This document shows, in pieces, positions 9,573-38,695 of a stretch of 64,000 bases of DNA. The notes beneath the pieces are model-generated. The model ran no database searches, was not told the origin of the DNA, and worked only from the letters and a program-made list of their open reading frames with translations. The number at the start of each line of letters is the position of its first letter. The stretch's first letter is position 1. The stretch lies in the NCBI GenBank assembly GCA_028287235.1, contig JAQBQB010000010.1, positions 248,001-312,000 on the forward strand, read 5' to 3'. The DNA comes from Gemmatimonadota bacterium. Its GTDB lineage: Bacteria; Gemmatimonadota; Gemmatimonadetes; Gemmatimonadales; Gemmatimonadaceae. A program made the translations under genes and the position numbers.

Positions 9573-9690
9573 ATGTCATCCTGAGGAGCAAAGCGACCCC
9601 AATGTCATCCTGAGGAGCGAAGCGACTCCAATGTCATCCTGAGGAGCAAAGCGACTCCAATGTCATCCTGAGGAGCGAAGCGACGAAGGA
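9573..9690. repeat. 29-bp tandem repeat, 4 copies
   Basis: Near-identical units begin at 9573, 9602, 9631 and 9660, each starting ATGTCATCCTGAGGAGC. Copies differ at only a few positions, including an alternating A/G. A partly inverted relative (CGCTTGGGATGACA) lies at 9744-9757. There are no spacers between units, so this is not a CRISPR array. It sits between two same-strand genes. Confidence 0.9.
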
Positions 9691-29750: not shown

Positions 29751-32351
29751 TCAGTCCCGCAACGCCACCGCCGGATTCACCCGCGCCGCGCGCCACGCGG
29801 GAATGAGCGCCGCCGCGATCGCCACGCCGAGCAGCGCCGCCGCGACAGCGAGGGGAATTCGCGGGTCGCTCGCCGTCACGCCGTAGAGAATGGAGCGGAG
29901 CAGCTGCGCGAAGGCGAACGCACCGGCACCCCCGAGCAGGATGCCCATGCAGGTGAGGCGAATCGCGCCGCCGGCCACCTGCGAGAGAATGTCGCGGCCG
30001 CGCGCGCCGAGGGCGATGCGCACACCGATCTCGCGCGTGCGCTGCGCCACGCCGTACGCGATCACGCCATAGAGACCCACGACGGCGATGACCATCGTGA
30101 TCGCCGCGAACACGCCCACGAGTCCGGCCATCAGCTTGAACGCCGAGACATGGCGCGCCTCGAGATCTCGCATCGTCATGACGCCGCCGATGGCCGCGGC
30201 CGGATTGGCGAGCCCGATCGTACGCCGAACGACGTCGCGCATGGCGTCCGGATCGCCGTCGGCCCAGACCTCGAGGTCCATGGTACGCGACATCGCCTGC
30301 GGCAGCGAGCGATACAGCTCGTCGAACAGCGGCTCGTCGAAGCCGCCGTGCCGCACGTCAGTGACGACGCCCACGATGGTCCAGGGCAGCGAGTCGATGA
30401 GCACAGTGCGTCCCACCGCTTCGCGCCCCGGCCAGAAATGTTCGGCGGTGTGATGGCTGATCACGACGACGCGAGGAGCGCTTGCGTCGTCGCGCGCTTC
30501 GATGCCGCGTCCGGCGACGACATGAATGCCCATCGCGCGAAAGTAGCCCGGCGTAACGCGCTGGTCGGTGGCGGACAACCGCCGGTCGCCCGGAAGCGGC
30601 GTGCGGCCGGGAACGTCGAAGGCCGTGCCCCACCGAGTGTTGCTGAGCGGTGTCGTGGTGGTGAGCCCTGCGCCCCGAATGCCGGGCTGCGCCATGAGGC
30701 GTTCGTCGAGCCGCACCATGAAATCGCGCGCGGCGCTGTCCGGAACCGTGCGTGGAACGGACAGATGCATCGACAACACGTGGTCGAGTCGTACGCCCGG
30801 GTCGCCGTTCATCATGTTGTGCACACTGCGCGCGAGCAGCGCCGCACCGGTCAACAGCACCAGCGCGACGCTCACCTCGGTGACGACGAGGCACGCGCGG
30901 AGGCGCGTGCCGCTCACGCCGGCGCTCGCGCGTCCTCCGTCGGAGAGGACGCTGGACAGGTTCACTCGCGTGGCACGAAGCGTAGGGAGTAGCGCGAAGA
31001 CGAGCGTCGTGGCCACGGAGACGACGAGCGTGAACAGGAGCGCCCGGCCGTCGACGTGTACGAACGCCCACCCGGGAACGAACGCGCCGAGCGACGGGGG
31101 AACGACGTCGCGCATCACCGAAACGCCCCAGACGGCGAGCACGGCACCCAGCGCCCCGCCCGCGAGCGATACGAGGAACGCCTCGACGAGGAGATGCCGC
31201 ACGAGCCGCGTGCGACGACCGCCGAGCGCGGCGCGCAACGCCAGCTCGCGCCCGCGCGCGGCGGTGCGAGCCAGCGCGAGATTGGCGACGCTCACGCACG
31301 CGGCGAGCAGCACGAGCGCCACGGCGACCGCGACGATCTCGACGAGCAGCGCGACGTCCTCGGTGTGAAACGCCGCGACGGGGCGCGCCACGAGCCGCCA
31401 ACCTTCTTCGGTCTTCGGTGAAGCCTGCGCGAGACTGTGACTGACGCGATCGGCGTCGCGCCGCGCGTCGGCGATCGTGGCGCCGTCGGCCAACCGGCCG
31501 AAGACGTAGAGATAGCGCGAGCCGTAGTTCTGCGCGTCGGAGGGCCGCGTCACCAGCGGCGCGTAGACGTCGGCGCGGGTGGGAAAGACGACGTCTTTCG
31601 CCAGCACGCCCACGACGCGCTGTGCCTTGCCGCTGAGGGTGATCGCTGAGTCGAGCACGCCGCGGCTGCCGCCAAAGCGGGATTGCCAGAAATCATATGA
31701 GAGAACCGTCACGGGCTCCGCGCTCGCCTCGTCTTCGCCCGTCGCGAAGCCGCGGCCCAGCGCAAACGGCGCGGAGACCGCCGAGAAGAGGTTGGCCGAG
31801 ACGAGAAACCCTTCGACGAGCTCGCTGCCTTCGGCGCCGCGAAGTGCGGTGCGCCAGCTGGACGTCGCCGCCACGGCGGCCATCGACGGCGCGCCGACGC
31901 GCAGCGCGAGGAACGCGGCGGGGGACACGTCCTCGCAGGCGGGACAATCGGCCGAGCGCTGTCCGATGGAGACGAGACGCTCTTGCGGTAGCAGCGGAAA
32001 TGGGCGCCGCAATACGGGATCGGTGAGACTGAACACGGCGGTCGTCGCACCAATGCCGAGCGCGAGGGTGATCGTGGCGGCGATCGCGTAGACGGGACTG
32101 CGCCGCAGCCCGCGCAGGCCGTGGCGAACATCCTGGCCGAGCTGCTCGAGCCAGCTCCATCGCCACACCCCGCGGACTGATTCCAGGACCAGCGTGCGAT
32201 TTCCGAAGCGGCGACGCGCTTCGAGCGCCGGGCTGTCCGTGCCGCCGCGCGCCGCGATCTCTTCCGCCTCGAGGTCCAGATGATCGCGAAGCTCACGCTC
32301 GATCTCGGCGTCGCGCGAGCGACGCGCACCGCCGAACAGTCGCCGCCACAT
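29751..32351 (-). CDS. ADOP-type ABC permease (FtsX/MacB family), copy 2
   Basis: 866 residues. An N-terminal cytoplasmic prefix (about 1-60, RRSRDAEIERELRDHLDLEAEEIAARG) is the ADOP permease prefix domain 1 type and differs from copy 1. Helix one is YAIAATITLALGIGATTAVF, then two MacB-core/FtsX units with closing REIGVRIALGARGRDILSQV. Two Cys pairs (CPAC) lie in the first periplasmic core. No adjacent ATPase is present. The start is 3 bases after the padR stop, so the two genes form one operon. Confidence 0.92.
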   Translation of the reverse strand: MWRRLFGGARRSRDAEIERELRDHLDLEAEEIAARGGTDSPALEARRRFGNRTLVLESVRGVWRWSWLEQLGQDVRHGLRGLRRSPVYAIAATITLALGIGATTAVFSLTDPVLRRPFPLLPQERLVSIGQRSADCPACEDVSPAAFLALRVGAPSMAAVAATSSWRTALRGAEGSELVEGFLVSANLFSAVSAPFALGRGFATGEDEASAEPVTVLSYDFWQSRFGGSRGVLDSAITLSGKAQRVVGVLAKDVVFPTRADVYAPLVTRPSDAQNYGSRYLYVFGRLADGATIADARRDADRVSHSLAQASPKTEEGWRLVARPVAAFHTEDVALLVEIVAVAVALVLLAACVSVANLALARTAARGRELALRAALGGRRTRLVRHLLVEAFLVSLAGGALGAVLAVWGVSVMRDVVPPSLGAFVPGWAFVHVDGRALLFTLVVSVATTLVFALLPTLRATRVNLSSVLSDGGRASAGVSGTRLRACLVVTEVSVALVLLTGAALLARSVHNMMNGDPGVRLDHVLSMHLSVPRTVPDSAARDFMVRLDERLMAQPGIRGAGLTTTTPLSNTRWGTAFDVPGRTPLPGDRRLSATDQRVTPGYFRAMGIHVVAGRGIEARDDASAPRVVVISHHTAEHFWPGREAVGRTVLIDSLPWTIVGVVTDVRHGGFDEPLFDELYRSLPQAMSRTMDLEVWADGDPDAMRDVVRRTIGLANPAAAIGGVMTMRDLEARHVSAFKLMAGLVGVFAAITMVIAVVGLYGVIAYGVAQRTREIGVRIALGARGRDILSQVAGGAIRLTCMGILLGGAGAFAFAQLLRSILYGVTASDPRIPLAVAAALLGVAIAAALIPAWRAARVNPAVALRD

Positions 32352-32354
32352 GGC

Positions 32355-32708
32355 TCATCCCTCCGTTGCGGGTTGCATCACGCGCCCAATCGCGCGCACG
32401 AGCTCGTCCCACTTCGACTGCTGCGCCAACAGCTGCTTTCGTCCCGCCGCCGTGAGCCGGTAGAACTTGAACTCGCGGTTGCCGTCGGGCGGCTTGTCCC
32501 ATTTCGCGGCGACGGCGCCTTTCTTCTCGAGCCGGTGCAGCGCCGGGTAGAGCGACCCGTGCTCCACGGTGAGCACGTCGCGCGTGGTCTGTTGGATGTG
32601 CTTTGCGATCCCGTGCCCATGCGCGGGACCGAAAAGCAGCGTCTTGAGGATCAGCATGTCGAGCGTGCCCTGGAGCAGCTCGACACGGTCGTCGGATGAT
32701 TTCGCCAT
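32355..32708 (-). CDS. PadR family transcriptional regulator
   Basis: 117 residues: LLQGTLDMLILKTLLFGPAHGHGIAKHI and GSLYPALHRLEKKGAVAAKW are the winged-helix segments of the ADOP-associated PadR subgroup, and KFYRLTAAGRKQLL is the wing. It is the first gene of the operon with ADOP permease 2. A perfect palindrome lies 6-20 bases before its start, suggesting autoregulation. Confidence 0.93.
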   Translation of the reverse strand: MAKSSDDRVELLQGTLDMLILKTLLFGPAHGHGIAKHIQQTTRDVLTVEHGSLYPALHRLEKKGAVAAKWDKPPDGNREFKFYRLTAAGRKQLLAQQSKWDELVRAIGRVMQPATEG

Positions 32709-32713
32709 GTGAT

Positions 32714-32728
32714 GGTAGAATGTCTACC
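32714..32728. promoter_or_regulatory. Probable PadR operator, padR-ADOP operon 2
   Basis: GGTAGA and TCTACC are perfect arms around ATG. The AATGTCTA core matches that in front of the other padR gene. The palindrome would overlap the ribosome-binding region of padR and lies 40 bases or more from the divergent histidine kinase gene, so it might affect both. Confidence 0.55.
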
Positions 32729-32768
32729 CTGGTGGTCTCTACGATTGTACGGATCCTGCGTTTCGTCA

Positions 32769-33941
32769 ATGGCCGGACTTGCTTTGGCTGCGCACCGCGG
32801 GCATCCTGTCGGCGGTATGCCACCAACTCCCGCCCCAACTCCCGCCGCCGCACGTGCCCCCTCGCGACACGGCGCGCTCACGCCCACAACGCTCTTCGCC
32901 ATTTGGAGCGTACCGACGCTGCTCTCCACCTTCGAGACAGTGATGTTCTCGCGGATGGGCGGCCGGCCCATTCCCGCCTGGCGCGCCTTCGCCGCCGAAG
33001 CGCCGCAGTGGTACGGCTGGGCGCTGCTCACGCCGGTGATCATCCGTCTCGGCGAGCGCTTTCCGCTTCAGCGTCCGCTGCGTGCCAGGAACGTGACCGT
33101 GCACGCGCTCGCGAGCCTCGGCGCGAGCGCGCTGGTCGCATTCGGCGACGCGCTCGTCAACTTGTGGGTGCGGCCGGGGCGGTTGAGTCTTTGGCAATCG
33201 GCCGGGAGCTGGTTCATCTCCGGCCTGCCGGCGATGACCGTCGCCTACTTCGCCATTCTTGGACTCAGCTACGCAGTGAACGGCGCGGCGCGGCTTCGCG
33301 AGCGCGAACGGAAGGAAGCGGAGCTGGAGGCGCAGCTACGCGACGCGCAGCTCGCCGCGCTGCGCATGCAGCTCCAGCCGCACTTCCTGTTCAACAGCCT
33401 CAACGCCGTCATGGCGCTCGTGCGCGATCAGGACACGGCGCGCGCCGTGCGCGCGCTCGCGCTGCTCAGCGACGTGCTCCGTGCCACGATCAACGCCGGC
33501 GACGCGCACGAGACGACTCTCGCGCAGGAGCTCGACTTCGTCCAACGCTACCTCGAGATCGAGCACGTGCGCTTCGGCGATCGCCTGCGCGTGACGATCG
33601 ACGTACCTAACCATCTGGCCGGCGCACGCGTGCCCACGTTCATCCTCCAGCCGTTCGTCGAGAATTCGCTCAAGCACGGCGTGCTGCGCGAGCGCGCCGG
33701 CAACGAGATCAGCATTCACGCCAGCGTCGTGGGGTCGGCGCTGCGTCTCGCGGTGCGCGACGACGGACGAGGACTCCCCGCGGCGGGCATGCCGCCCACC
33801 GGCGTGGGCATCGAGAACGCACGGGCGCGGCTGGCGCAGATGTACGGCGACGGCGCGGCGCTGTCGGTGCGGAACGCGACCGATGGCCCGGGCGTGTCCG
33901 TCGAGATTACCCTGCCGCTGGCGTCGTGCCCCGCGTCGTGA
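32769..33941 (+). CDS. LytS/YehU-type sensor histidine kinase
   Basis: 390 residues: a short Pro/Ala-rich cytoplasmic start, four membrane helices (about 41-170) and no separate sensor domain, then a His_kinase domain with the acceptor His205 in QLQPHFLFNSLN. The ATPase part has the N-box PFVENSLKHGV and DDGRG(L)P. This family phosphorylates LytTR regulators such as the one encoded next. ATG 32817 is an alternative start; no Shine-Dalgarno decides between them. It is divergent from the padR gene. Confidence 0.9.
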   Translation: MAGLALAAHRGHPVGGMPPTPAPTPAAARAPSRHGALTPTTLFAIWSVPTLLSTFETVMFSRMGGRPIPAWRAFAAEAPQWYGWALLTPVIIRLGERFPLQRPLRARNVTVHALASLGASALVAFGDALVNLWVRPGRLSLWQSAGSWFISGLPAMTVAYFAILGLSYAVNGAARLRERERKEAELEAQLRDAQLAALRMQLQPHFLFNSLNAVMALVRDQDTARAVRALALLSDVLRATINAGDAHETTLAQELDFVQRYLEIEHVRFGDRLRVTIDVPNHLAGARVPTFILQPFVENSLKHGVLRERAGNEISIHASVVGSALRLAVRDDGRGLPAAGMPPTGVGIENARARLAQMYGDGAALSVRNATDGPGVSVEITLPLASCPAS

Positions 33942-33946
33942 CTCGC

Positions 33947-34678
33947 ATGATCCGTGCGCTGATCGCCGACGATGAGGCGCTCTCGCGCCGGCTCGTACAT
34001 CAACTGCTCGAGCGGCACGCCGACGTCGCCGTCGTCGCCGAGTGCACCGACGGCGAAGAGGCGCGCGAGGCGATCGCCGCGCTCGAGCCCGACGTCGTCT
34101 TCCTCGACGTGCGCATGCCGGTCGAATCAGGCCTCGACGTGGCGCGCGGACGCGAGCCGCGCAGCGGACCCCTCGTGGTGTTCGTCACCGCCTACGACAA
34201 GTTCGCGCTCCCCGCGTTCGAGACCGACGCGGTGGACTATCTCACCAAGCCGCTCACCGAGGAGCGCTTCGACGCCGCGCTCGACCGGGTGCGCGACCGG
34301 CTGCGGCTGCGGCGCATCGCCGACACGCTCGAGGAGGAAGAGCCGCACGACCTCTCGCATCTCGTCGCCCGCGTCGGCGTGCGCGACGTGATCATTCCAC
34401 TCGAGACGATCGACTACATCGAGGCCGACGACGTCTACGCCGCCGTCATCGCGCGCGGGCGGCGGCTTCTCGTGCGCACGCCGCTCGACGCTCTCGAGCG
34501 CACGCTCGATCCGGCGGTGTTCGCGCGCATCCACCGTTCGTACATCGTGCGGCTCGCCCGGGTGACCGAGGTGCGCCGCGAGCGCATGGAGGTCGTGTTG
34601 GCGGGCGGCGTCACGCTGCCCGTGAGCCGGCGCCGCCGTGGCGCGTTGGACCGGCTGCTCAAGCCGCTGGCGACATAG
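33947..34678 (+). CDS. LytTR family response regulator
   Basis: 243 residues: receiver domain (about 1-115, acidic ADDE at 7-10, phospho-acceptor Asp54 in FLDVRMP, Lys in YLTKPL) and a C-terminal LytTR DNA-binding domain (about 140-240, IDYIEADDVYAAVIARGRR, FARIHRSYIVRLARV). It forms a two-component pair with the upstream kinase. ATG 33947 gives the normal MIRALIADDE start and lies 6 bases past the kinase stop; a GTG at 33938 overlapping that stop is possible. Confidence 0.93.
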   Translation: MIRALIADDEALSRRLVHQLLERHADVAVVAECTDGEEAREAIAALEPDVVFLDVRMPVESGLDVARGREPRSGPLVVFVTAYDKFALPAFETDAVDYLTKPLTEERFDAALDRVRDRLRLRRIADTLEEEEPHDLSHLVARVGVRDVIIPLETIDYIEADDVYAAVIARGRRLLVRTPLDALERTLDPAVFARIHRSYIVRLARVTEVRRERMEVVLAGGVTLPVSRRRRGALDRLLKPLAT

Positions 34679-34722
34679 AGCGTGCCGTTGGCGACAGGGC
34701 CGTGGTGAACATTCCTGCCCGC

Positions 34723-34761
34723 GTGTCATCCTTCGGTCGCGCTGCCTCCCCAGGATGACAC
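34723..34761 (+). promoter_or_regulatory. Hairpin covering the ribosome-binding site
   Basis: GTGTCATCCT (34723-34732) and AGGATGACAC (34752-34761) are perfect 10-bp arms around a 19-base loop. The right arm ends one base before the ATG at 34763 and contains AGGA, the only Shine-Dalgarno-like sequence. It belongs to the GGATGAC element family of this window. Confidence 0.65.
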
Positions 34762-34762
34762 A

Positions 34763-36244
34763 ATGAGACTTCTTGCACTTCTTCTCGCCGTCACACCCCC
34801 CGACCCCCACGCCCTCGTCGACGGCGCCATCGCCGCCATGCAGCGCAACACGTCGCTTGGAGACATCCGCTCGGTGCGCCTCGCCGGCGCGCAGCACGAC
34901 TGGATCCTCGGAAACGCCGAGCGCGCCGAAGGACCGTGGCGCGTGGGCTATAGCCAGTTCAGCGAGCTGCACGACATTCGGAACGCCAGCCTCCGCCGCA
35001 CCGCGCAGAGCGTACTTCCCACAGGCGCCAAGTCAGCCGACCGCATCACGATCCTCGTCGATTCCGTGGTGGCCAATCGCACAGGCAACCGAGAGATCGG
35101 CGCATCGAAATCGTTCTACGAGGACGTCATCGACCGCGTCGACGGCTCGCCGATTCGCGCGCTCTTGCTCGCGTCGCGGTCGCCGGCGTTGAAGTACGAG
35201 CGCGTGGTGAAGCACTACGGCGTGACCTTCGACGTCGTCTCCTTTCCCTGGCGGAACGGACGCATGGAGCTCGAGCTCAATCGCGACTCGCATCTACCGG
35301 GTGCGGTGGAGATCGTGCGTCCCTATTCCGACAACTTCCGCTGGGCGCCGTTCGGCGACGTGCACATGCGCGCCGACTACGTCGACTGGAACGTGCAGCC
35401 GTCGGGCGCCTACTGGCCCATGCAGGTGAAGGTGTCGCTCAACGGCGAGCCGCTGCGCGACGTCACGTTCGCGACCGTCGCGCTCGACACCGCCGCGCCG
35501 GCCGCCGATTCATTCGCCGTCTCCGACTCGGCGCGCCTGCAATCGGTTGCCGCATCGAAGCTCGACTTCTCGCGCTTCCGCCTCGGCATGCGCGGCCAAC
35601 CGACGGAGCTCGAGCCCGGCATCGTCCGCGTGCCCGACCAGTGGACGCAGACGCTCGTCAGGCAGCCCGACGGTGTCGTGATCTTCGAGGCACACATCAG
35701 TGGGCAGTACCTGATGGACGTGATCGGCGAGGCGCACAAGCGTTGGCCGGGCGCACCGATCAAGGCGCTCGTCATGACGTCGGACCCCTGGGCACACCTG
35801 GGCGGCGTGCGCCAGGCGATGGCACTCGGCATCCCGATCTACGTGAGCTCGGGCAGCGTTCCCTTCCTCACCGCGCTCGCGAAGATGCCGCACACCATGG
35901 AGCCGGACTCGCTGGCCAAGGTGCCGCGCGCGCCGAAGTTCATTCCGGTCGTTGGCAAAACGGTGATCGGGCGCGGCGAAAACCAGATCGAGCTCTATCC
36001 GGTGGGCGGCGAGTACGGTGAGAGAATGCTCATGGCGTATTTTCCCGGCCACAAGGTGCTCTACGGCGCGGACCTCGTCTTTCCGAATCGCGGACCGGAC
36101 GGCAAGGTCGACAAAGGTTTCTTCGAGACGTCGGCCGTGGACCTGCGGCGCGCCGTGGCTCGCGAAAAGCTCGCCGTCGATTCGCTCTTCTGCGTCCAGG
36201 CCTCTCCCATCATGGCCTGGGACGCGTTCTCAGTCACTCCGTAG
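34763..36244 (+). CDS. Metallo-beta-lactamase-fold protein lacking metal ligands
   Basis: 493 residues. The C-terminal half (about 290-490) follows the MBL order seen in SoxH-like or secreted MBL proteins, but the zinc-binding HxHxDH motif is replaced: the equivalent stretch reads VMTSDPWAHLGGV (about 335-347) with only the last His left. The second zinc region is VGGEYGERMLMAYFPGHKV and the usual GDL is ADL. It is therefore likely non-catalytic or binds metal differently. The N-terminal half (about 1-270) is beta-rich, and the first ~12 residues may be a short signal sequence. Its 3' end overlaps the convergent ADOP permease by 15 bases. Confidence 0.75.
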   Translation: MRLLALLLAVTPPDPHALVDGAIAAMQRNTSLGDIRSVRLAGAQHDWILGNAERAEGPWRVGYSQFSELHDIRNASLRRTAQSVLPTGAKSADRITILVDSVVANRTGNREIGASKSFYEDVIDRVDGSPIRALLLASRSPALKYERVVKHYGVTFDVVSFPWRNGRMELELNRDSHLPGAVEIVRPYSDNFRWAPFGDVHMRADYVDWNVQPSGAYWPMQVKVSLNGEPLRDVTFATVALDTAAPAADSFAVSDSARLQSVAASKLDFSRFRLGMRGQPTELEPGIVRVPDQWTQTLVRQPDGVVIFEAHISGQYLMDVIGEAHKRWPGAPIKALVMTSDPWAHLGGVRQAMALGIPIYVSSGSVPFLTALAKMPHTMEPDSLAKVPRAPKFIPVVGKTVIGRGENQIELYPVGGEYGERMLMAYFPGHKVLYGADLVFPNRGPDGKVDKGFFETSAVDLRRAVAREKLAVDSLFCVQASPIMAWDAFSVTP

Positions 36245-38695
36245 CGCGACCGACGGATCGACGGCGGCGGCACGGCGCGCCGGCAGCCAACTGGCCACGA
36301 GCGCGACGGCCAGCAGCAGCACGCACGTGCCGCCGAGGGCGATCGGATCGGTGGAGCTCACGTTGTAGAGCAAGCGGCCCATGAAGCGCGTGAGCCCGAG
36401 GGCCGCGAGCAATCCGATACCGACGCCCACCGCCGCGAGCCCGAGGCCCTGCCGCGAGATCATTCGGCTCACGTCGGCGGGGCGTGCGCCGAGCGCCATG
36501 CGCACGCCGATCTCACGTTGGCGAAGGCTCACGCCGTACGCCATGACGCCATAGATGCCCACCGCGCCGAGCGTGAGGGCCACGACGCCGGCGACGCCGA
36601 GCAACACCATCGTGAAGCGCGTCCTCGCCGACGCGTCGGTGAGGACGCGCGACATCGGCTGCTCGTGAAAGGTCGGCAACGTGGAATCGAGACGATGCAC
36701 CGCCTCGCGCACCGCGGCCGTGAGCCGCGACGGATCGCCCTGGGTGCGCACGACGAGCGACACGCCCCCGTCCACGCTCACCCCCGAATCGTGCGCCGGC
36801 GTCACCTGCGCGAAATACGCGGCATCGTCAGCCGGCCTTTCGAGTGACTCGATGTGGACGTCGCCCACCACGCCCACGATCGTGAACCACGGCCCGTCGA
36901 TCCCCGGGCGAATGCGCTTGCCGAGCGGGTTGCCGTCCTTCCAGTACCGGTTCGCGAAGGCACGGCTGACGATCGCTTCCAGCGACGGACGCGCAGCATC
37001 CTGCGCACCGAAAGAACGGCCCGACAGCATCGGGATTCCCATCGCCTTGAAGTACTCGGCGCTCACCCACACCTGGTCGTGCACGGCCGGCACCGTGTTC
37101 TTGAGCGGCATGTGATCTTCCACGCCGAGCGCACCGTTGTCGTGGCCGTCGCCCAATGGCAACCAGGTGGTGAAGCCGGCGGCGTCGACGCCGGGAATGG
37201 CTCGAACGGCGTCGGCGAGCGCGTTGAAGTACTGCATCCGCGCCACGGCATTCGGATACTTCGCGTCGGGAAGAGAGATGCGCATGGTGAGCACGCGATC
37301 GGCGTCGAACCCCGGCGTCACGGCACGCAGGCGCGCGAAACTGCGGAGCATGAGGCCCGAGCCGGCGACGAGGACCAGCGCCAGCGCGACCTGCACGACG
37401 ACGAGCACGTTGCGCGAGTGCTGCTTCGCGACGCCCGACGTCGCAGCGCGGCCGGAGTCCTTGAGGACGGTGGAGAGCGGAATCTTGCGCGCGCGCAGCA
37501 TCGGGATCAGACTCACCGCGAACGCCGCCAGCAGTGTCGCCGCCACGGCAAAGGCGATGACGCGCGCGTCGACGGCAACCTCACCGAGCCTCGGGAGCGA
37601 GATGCCTTCCGGCAACGTGCCGAGTGCGCGAACCGCCATGGCGGCGATCGCCAACCCGATCGCTCCCCCGAGCGCGGCGAGCAGCAGCGCCTCGCTGAGA
37701 TACTGCGCGAGAATCGTCCCGCGGCTCGCGCCGAGCGCGGTCCGCACGGCAAGCTCGCGGTGGCGCGCTTCGCCGCGGACCAGAAAGAGATTCGCCACGT
37801 TCGCGCAGGCGATGAGCAGCACCAGCCCGCCGGTACCGAAGAGGATCCAGAGCAGCGGACCGACGTCGCCGATGACCACGTCGCGGAGCGGACGGATGAG
37901 CGACCGAAGATGCACCTTCTCGAACATCGCCGGCGGAATGTCGCTCGGGAATTCATCGAGCATGCGCGGCAGGATGCGATTCAGGTCGGCGGCGGCAGCA
38001 TCGCGGCTCACGCCCGGCTTGAGCCGCGCGACGACCTGATAGTTGAAGCTCCCCGGCGCGCTGTGCTCCGGATCGAAGTGCGTGGGATACCAGAGCTCCG
38101 CGGACGCGCGCGGAAACTGAAAGCGCGCCGGCATGATGCCGATGATCTGGTTTGGTCTGCCGTCGATCAGCACGCGCGAGCCGACGACGTGCAGATCGCC
38201 GCCGAATTTCTTCTCCCACAGTCCCTGCGAGAGGAGCACCACGCCCGGCACATTGGTGCGGTCTTCGCCTGGCGCGAAGGTGCGGCCGGCGAGCGGGGTC
38301 ACGCCGAGCGTAGGCAGCAGGCTCGCGCTCACGCCCACGGCACTCACCCGCTCGGCGTCGGCGCCGTTGCCCGTGCCCGACGCCAGATTGACTTCGTCGT
38401 CGCGGTAGGAGCCGATGCCGTCGAAGACGGTGTTATGCCGTTGGTACAGCAGGAACGTCGCGTCGGACTGATCGACTTGGTTGATCCCGGGCACGACGAT
38501 GCTGTGCGCGAGGCTGACGAGCCGCTCCGGATCGGCATATGGTAGCGGCCGCAGCAGCACGCCGTTCACGATGCTGAACAACGCCGTCGTCGCGCCGATT
38601 CCCAACGCCAGCACGAGCAGCGTGGTGAGGCTGAACAGCGGAGCGCGGCGCAGACGGCGCCAGGCGTGGCGTAGCTCGTGGAACGGGCCTGTCAT
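36230..38695 (-). CDS. ADOP-type ABC permease (FtsX/MacB family), copy 3
   Basis: 821 residues starting almost directly with the first helix (FSLTTLLVLALGIGATTALF, about 20-39), so there is no N-terminal prefix domain, unlike the two other copies. Two MacB-core/FtsX units follow; RHRELAVRTALGASRGTI and REIGVRMALGARPADV are the conserved cytoplasmic loops. No padR or ATPase adjoins. Its stop overlaps the stop region of the MBL-fold gene on the opposite strand. It is divergent from the pyrophosphatase gene with only about 19 bases between start codons. Confidence 0.92.
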   Translation of the reverse strand: MTGPFHELRHAWRRLRRAPLFSLTTLLVLALGIGATTALFSIVNGVLLRPLPYADPERLVSLAHSIVVPGINQVDQSDATFLLYQRHNTVFDGIGSYRDDEVNLASGTGNGADAERVSAVGVSASLLPTLGVTPLAGRTFAPGEDRTNVPGVVLLSQGLWEKKFGGDLHVVGSRVLIDGRPNQIIGIMPARFQFPRASAELWYPTHFDPEHSAPGSFNYQVVARLKPGVSRDAAAADLNRILPRMLDEFPSDIPPAMFEKVHLRSLIRPLRDVVIGDVGPLLWILFGTGGLVLLIACANVANLFLVRGEARHRELAVRTALGASRGTILAQYLSEALLLAALGGAIGLAIAAMAVRALGTLPEGISLPRLGEVAVDARVIAFAVAATLLAAFAVSLIPMLRARKIPLSTVLKDSGRAATSGVAKQHSRNVLVVVQVALALVLVAGSGLMLRSFARLRAVTPGFDADRVLTMRISLPDAKYPNAVARMQYFNALADAVRAIPGVDAAGFTTWLPLGDGHDNGALGVEDHMPLKNTVPAVHDQVWVSAEYFKAMGIPMLSGRSFGAQDAARPSLEAIVSRAFANRYWKDGNPLGKRIRPGIDGPWFTIVGVVGDVHIESLERPADDAAYFAQVTPAHDSGVSVDGGVSLVVRTQGDPSRLTAAVREAVHRLDSTLPTFHEQPMSRVLTDASARTRFTMVLLGVAGVVALTLGAVGIYGVMAYGVSLRQREIGVRMALGARPADVSRMISRQGLGLAAVGVGIGLLAALGLTRFMGRLLYNVSSTDPIALGGTCVLLLAVALVASWLPARRAAAVDPSVALRSD

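Follow-up and report, generated by a model that had tools for sequence, protein, structure and literature searches.

The window, that is, the whole stretch of 64,000 nucleotides analysed here, carries on its plus strand a gene for a membrane histidine kinase, a gene for a LytTR response regulator, and a gene for a 493-aa protein in which a LolA-like domain precedes a metallo-beta-lactamase (MBL) fold lacking the zinc-ligand set. The features are listed below; row counts refer to the family alignment described in the next section.

32709..33941, + strand: membrane histidine kinase, PF06580 plus HATPase_c (Pfam, hydrophobic stretches); the start is probably downstream, e.g., ATG 32817
33926..34678, + strand: response regulator, receiver plus LytTR domain (PF00072, PF04397); ATG 33947 is also in frame
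34664..34696, + strand: period-21 direct repeat CCGCTGGCGACA-N9-CCGTTGGCGACA, a putative LytTR binding site (spacer reading, scans)
34763..36244, + strand: gene for the LolA-like plus zinc-less MBL-fold protein (open reading frame, homologues, dN/dS of relatives)
34793..35527, + strand: LolA-like domain, residues 11-255 (alignment to 3bk5: Z 17.8, rmsd 3.7, 208 aligned)
35582..36241, + strand: MBL-fold domain, residues 274-493 (alignment to 2nze_A: Z 18.6, rmsd 2.9, 195 aligned)
35780..35797, + strand: former HxHxDH motif, reading SDPWAH (residues 340-345), H345 alone kept (alignment)
36014..36016, + strand: Y418, third-His position (subclade Y 7/8, A 1/8; zinc-type H 31/34)
36071..36073, + strand: D437, bridging-Asp position, kept (D in 8/8 subclade, 28/30 sister, and 34/34 zinc-type rows)
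36197..36199, + strand: Q479, last-His position (Q in 8/8 subclade rows; H in 29/30 sister rows)

The module is flanked by large open reading frames on the opposite strand (29751-32708, 866 aa; 36230-38695, 821 aa), which resemble duplicated MacB-type permeases, and by an open reading frame that is presumably PadR-like.

The frame of the zinc-less gene is open over its full length. A Pfam search with the protein returned no family at E <= 1, PF00753 not reaching its cut-off, and the NCBIfam class-B core model gave a sub-threshold 15.5 bits (cut-off 100). The first-pass annotation had recognised an MBL fold in conserved segments and proposed structure prediction as a check. The segments are in place, and a model built from 30 sequences (pLDDT 91.1) yielded an MBL fold that aligned to the B. 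cereus metallo-beta-lactamase 2nze_A; the mono-zinc enzyme CphA (1x8g; Z 17.6, rmsd 4.4, 200 aligned) was among the structural matches. The N-terminal domain adopted a LolA-like fold in this model, with just 6% identity to 3bk5 in the structural alignment. Since the N-terminus is hydrophobic and signal-like N-termini occur in relatives (e.g., L042 and L050), the protein probably acts in the envelope, in the periplasm. A protein search of its own genome returned no second copy (second match, E 0.11), and in a plasmid collection three records matched at E <= 1e-10, each covering about 30% of the query.

The zinc site across the family

When the genome collection was scanned, the single protein as query retrieved 0 relatives, and an alignment as query retrieved 24. 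The loci from the alignment scan fell in Gemmatimonadota, Bacteroidota, Acidobacteriota, Pseudomonadota, Armatimonadota, and Eremiobacterota, many of them in MAGs and some in isolates (Massilia, Rufibacter, Sabulibacter, Edaphobacter, and Pontibacter). The spread is patchy: strong matches, as judged from the tables, occurred in 10 of 179 genomes of the window's own family, 7 of 396 in the phylum of G406 (Acidobacteriaceae), 4 of 245 in the family of G403 (Massilia), and 1 of 291 in the order of G399 (Sabulibacter). From 106 pieces we obtained 86 alignment rows, dropping those with <62% of columns filled and those nearly identical to others. We took the ligand positions to be those of the MBL superfamily at large, and the zinc-type rows bear this assumption out, with His1, His3, Asp5, and the bridging Asp each present in 34/34.

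Aligned with its relatives, the window protein has S340 at His1, P342 at His3, A344 at Asp5, H345 at His6, Y418 at the third His, D437 at the bridging Asp, and Q479 at the last His. It therefore keeps two of the seven ligands (H345 and D437), and the complete set of HxHxDH plus later ligands is absent. As first described, the HxHxDH position reads SDPWAH and the later His positions are changed; the Asp ligand had also been called changed, and this is wrong, as the bridging Asp D437 (in LLYGADLV) is present, as is the last His of the motif, H345. A family alignment had been proposed to see whether the loss is fixed. In the window's subclade, S340, P342, A344, H345, R421, D437, and Q479 were each found in 8/8 rows, and the loss reached well beyond the subclade. 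In none of the sister rows (n = 30) with an SDxWPH motif was position 340 or 342 occupied by His, or position 344 by Asp, while H345 was His in 29/30. Over all 38 SDxWPH-type rows, the window's subclade included, His1, His3, and the motif Asp were missing from every row, and the third His from every row but L160, which has His at 418. Two new residues were nearly constant: R421 in 35/38 rows (27/30 sister, 8/8 subclade) and D341 in 34/38 (26/30 sister, 8/8 subclade). The earlier description of a scaffold without metal therefore stands as regards a conserved scaffold without the zinc-ligand set; its second half, the absence of metal, is presumptive and follows from the residues at these positions.

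In a tree of the 86 rows built without the ligand columns, one branch (SH-aLRT 95) parted 34 zinc-type rows, counting L186 and L177, which were classed by their first motif despite missing one or more other ligands, from 52 zinc-less rows. A more careful tree, from which three long rows (L023, L177, and L057) and the ligand columns were removed, separated 32 zinc-type from 51 zinc-less rows with support of 99/97 and in 200/200 bootstrap trees. The first-pass annotation held that homologues with the full ligand set would point to a local mutation. Such homologues were found, but they sit across the dividing branch, and the nearest relatives share the loss, so the argument for a local mutation fails; the loss is common to the whole subclade, which rules this cause out. 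The zinc site was apparently lost in one old event: the tree is unrooted, and the wide occurrence of zinc ligands across the MBL superfamily argues for loss rather than gain. Separately, L177 has the first motif with THWHYDT and Arg in place of the last His, and L186 has the first motif with Gln in place of the third His, possibly as further partial losses.

The zinc-less side comprised three kinds: SDxWPH, to which the window protein belongs, DxAWPH, and a more eroded kind. A DxAWPH protein was modelled with pLDDT 78.8, and its MBL fold aligned to 3knr_B (Z 20.4, rmsd 2.9, 190 aligned). When Pfam was run on 10 proteins, six zinc-less proteins matched no family at E <= 0.1 and four zinc-type proteins matched PF00753. 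The zinc-type LolA-like plus MBL proteins (e.g., L015 and L069) align over nearly the full length and are the nearest relatives with full ligands; unlike the window protein, they retain HxHxDH together with the later His, and they match PF00753. At an Eremiobacterota locus (L055:3676-8961), a single zinc-less protein and a double one (1029 aa, two full copies) are encoded in tandem.

The kinase/LytTR pair and the period-21 repeat

The kinase and LytTR genes immediately precede the zinc-less gene and share its strand. The PF06580 region of the kinase scored 84.5 bits against a cut-off of 25.2. Besides PF06580, HATPase_c, and one sub-threshold match, the kinase matched no family, PF07694 (5TM-5TMR_LYT) included, at E <= 1. 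The PF07694 domain defines LytS in the strict sense, as described in PMC5552118. The two genes had been named a LytS/LytTR pair; a PF06580 kinase and a LytTR regulator are indeed present, whereas a kinase without PF07694 is not LytS in that strict sense. The top NCBIfam match of the regulator was the BtsR model, below its cut-off (160 versus 246 bits). The genome, at 5.73 Mb, has just eight LytTR matches, from which we estimate a chance adjacency of about 0.5%.

The order kinase-LytTR-zinc-less gene was found in Gemmatimonadota, Bacteroidota, and Acidobacteriota; cultured bacteria that have it are Sabulibacter ruber and Rufibacter psychrotolerans (L042/L043). Among loci longer than 5 kb and flanked by 2.5 kb or more on either side, both partners lay within 1.5 kb of the gene in 7/25 SDxWPH, 2/10 DxAWPH, 2/4 eroded, and 2/27 zinc-type loci, and more linked cases were found near contig ends (L039, L041, L164, L059, and L096). 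The pairing is not obligatory, since 18 of the 25 well-flanked SDxWPH members have no adjacent pair. No common theme emerged from the genes beside ten members (FlhC, methyltransferase, flavin reductase, M28 peptidase, SDR, amidohydrolase, WD40, and others). At one locus from the Acidobacteriota search (L165:6153-7787, G704), a PF00450 serine carboxypeptidase-like gene, encoded on the same strand as the zinc-less gene, overlaps the latter's end.

Between the LytTR gene and the zinc-less gene, ending 66 bp upstream of the ATG, is the period-21 direct repeat. LytTR sites are described as two repeats of 9 to 11 nt with 11 to 13 nt between them (PMC4847170), and the window repeat, which can be read as a 9-mer plus 12 or a 12-mer plus 9, has this layout. 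In the window and in G003, the first half reaches into the final codons of the LytTR gene; in G030 and L039, by distance, both halves follow the LytTR stop, and the repeat can therefore not be put down to coding constraint. In the eight promoters of the subclade, period 21 gave the best self-match of 28 periods (mean 9.25/12, z 5.3); in 14 promoters outside the subclade, no signal at period 21 came out of the 12-mer self-match (rank 21/28). In its own genome, the window's site was the one site with 0 mismatches, followed by two at 3 mismatches with none between, and the reversed control gave four sites at up to 3 mismatches. A matrix scan, the background counts of which include windows overlapping the site itself, returned no strong site in L036, L037, L040, L042, L043, L164, L165, and others, in some of which the core motif did find one.

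This core motif, CCGYTSGCnRC, was scored against mononucleotide shuffles, with p <= 0.02 as a pass; the start codons of L193 and L191 are uncertain in this test. Passes were obtained for 13 of 15 TCS-linked zinc-less genes, most of these promoters having been seen before the core was set and so not being independent, for none of the four TCS-linked zinc-type genes, which in this differ from the zinc-less ones, and for 3 of 34 unlinked genes (L036 and L040 of the window's subclade, and L201). Among the 13 are one DxAWPH member, two eroded ones, and members from Bacteroidota and Acidobacteriota, in which the period is 20; besides the four zinc-type genes, L041 and L197 were the linked members without a box in this test. 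Scanning 395 genomes of the phylum for the pattern, without mismatches, gave 40 sites in 33 genomes, a total close to that of the reversed control (about 37, by our own sum). Neighbours were inspected for every one of the 34 sites lying outside G019 and for one of the six within it. Nine inspected sites adjoin a kinase/LytTR pair, and only these stand out. Six are at zinc-less family genes (G000, G030, G025, G369, G165, and G367), the last three of which were not known to be TCS-linked when the scan found their sites; none is at a zinc-type gene. The other three (G160, G253, and G145) come from loci that encode an HGSNAT_cat membrane acyltransferase, so members of the zinc-less family are not alone in having the box. 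Together, the gene order kept in three phyla and the repeat carry the link between the zinc-less protein and the pair, which had been proposed from position, beyond adjacency.

In those three loci (L263, L264, and L265), HGSNAT_cat (PF07786) takes the place of the zinc-less MBL protein beside the box and the pair; possibly the two are exchangeable cargo of one kind of regulator. Upstream of the zinc-less gene, a search for a sigma-70-like promoter found none. Just before the ATG (window 34723-34761) there is a 10-bp inverted repeat, GTGTCATCCT...AGGATGACAC, the 3' arm of which spans the likely ribosome-binding site; the RNA fold predicted across the start is a weak hairpin (-23.7 kcal/mol, z -2.15). 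Elsewhere in the window (9573-9684), about four 29-bp copies (ATGTCATCCTGAGGAGCAAAGCGACTCCA) have the core TGTCATCCT in common with the repeat before the gene.

A proposed role and its alternatives

On balance, we favour the reading that the gene encodes a zinc-less, ligand-binding envelope protein serving as the dedicated output of the PF06580/LytTR pair through the period-21 repeat. Fold, loss and fixation of ligand residues, selection in relatives, gene order, and the repeat with its co-occurrence were computed; export, metal absence, LytTR binding, ligand class, and lack of catalysis are inferred. In this scheme, the zinc site of an exported LolA-like plus MBL-fold protein would have disappeared in an old event, and selection would have maintained the protein since. 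The kinase/LytTR pair would sense an envelope cue, and the regulator would drive the zinc-less gene, its dedicated and probably only target, through the putative box at 34664-34696; the zinc-less protein looks like a regulated target of the pair. It would then bind an amphiphilic envelope ligand through the LolA-like cavity and the remodelled MBL pocket, without zinc hydrolysis. By analogy with RseB/MucB (PMC7400510), the LolA-like domain hints at a lipid or amphiphile as ligand, and the pocket, having lost the first-metal His and gained nearly fixed D341 and R421, is probably a binding site. More tentatively, one old zinc-site loss may have turned an exported enzyme into a non-catalytic binder, with this lineage, and not its zinc-type sisters, coming under the control of one-target PF06580/LytTR systems, which in several phyla would carry either it or an HGSNAT-type acyltransferase as exchangeable cargo.

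Single-target LytTR systems have precedents. E. coli BtsR and YpdB are each described as having one target gene, the targets being yjiY and yhjX (PMC5552118), and BtsS/BtsR and YpdA/YpdB resemble the window's system in having a LytTR regulator, repeat sites (PMC4847170), and, in the accounts cited, a single target; however, BtsS and YpdA carry the 5TM-5TMR_LYT domain, for which the window kinase gave no match, and yjiY and yhjX are genes other than the zinc-less gene. The metal-less MBL folds that we found in print are the eukaryotic RNA-processing subunits INTS9 and CPSF100, MBL/beta-CASP pseudo-nucleases described as unable to hold catalytic ions and as working by binding (PMC7980224). They share with the window protein an MBL fold without catalytic-ion binding; unlike it, they have a beta-CASP domain and no LolA-like domain, and the losses in the two families were presumably independent. 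Titles and abstracts, with subscription journals mostly outside the search, yielded nothing on the family described here or on a LytTR-controlled MBL-fold protein. New here is the period-21 direct repeat, laid out like a LytTR binding site, before a zinc-less gene. The family itself is a bacterial MBL-fold family with an old, fixed zinc-site loss and no Pfam name, and the kinase, the regulator, and the putative binding site provide a regulatory handle beside it. Two matters thereby become testable at one locus: the role of a zinc-less MBL pocket and the cue of PF06580/LytTR systems without a known sensor domain.

Somewhat unlikely, in our view, is that the protein is an accessory sensor, binding a ligand in the envelope and acting back on a kinase without a Pfam-recognised sensor domain. 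The conserved arrangement of the three genes would fit, as would a kinase above cut-off for PF06580 and HATPase_c only, and a precedent exists in RseB/MucB, described as sensing lipids through a LolA/LolB-like domain and controlling signalling (PMC7400510). RseB/MucB resemble the window protein in this domain, their envelope location, and the tie to signalling, but they act on an anti-sigma factor and have no MBL fold. Many members, however, have no adjacent kinase, and the HGSNAT_cat genes with the same boxes in three loci fit a plain output.

That the protein is still a metalloenzyme is unlikely. A single zinc suffices for class B2 enzymes, CphA is one of the structural matches, and the sister rows keep H345 (29/30), D437 (28/30), and the last His (29/30), three possible ligands that could hold one metal in the sister clade, with the window's subclade swapping His for Gln. 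Against this, the motif Asp is missing in 38/38 rows, and the subclade is without the last His in 8/8, leaving one His and one Asp of the seven ligands.

A chance repeat in GC-rich DNA is an improbable source of the period-21 signal; the total of the 395-genome scan about equals its reversed control, but the expectation in the window is 0.01, period 21 ranks first of 28 in the subclade promoters, and 6 of the 40 scan sites adjoin zinc-less family genes that have a TCS next to them.

A decaying pseudogene, the zinc site of which simply drifted away, can be set aside as very improbable: the G129 copy (G129:C44:5297-6028) has an in-frame TGA stop and the Edaphobacter copy (L056:5893-7475) is split across two frames, but the window frame is open at full length, the lost ligand positions hold fixed replacements, and dN/dS is well below 1 in three close pairs of relatives. 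By the Nei-Gojobori method, applied to close pairs, dN/dS was 0.070/0.462 for the two G034 copies, 0.021/0.122 for two Massilia, and 0.020/0.208 for Sabulibacter/Rufibacter, low values that argue against decay; for two more pairs, including the window protein with its nearest relative, dS was about 1 or above. The MBL domain had a lower dN than the N-terminal part in each of the three pairs (G034, 0.044 versus 0.069; Massilia, 0.002 versus 0.039; Sabulibacter/Rufibacter, 0.008 versus 0.027), so that, of the two parts, it is the zinc-less domain that has been better conserved in these relatives.
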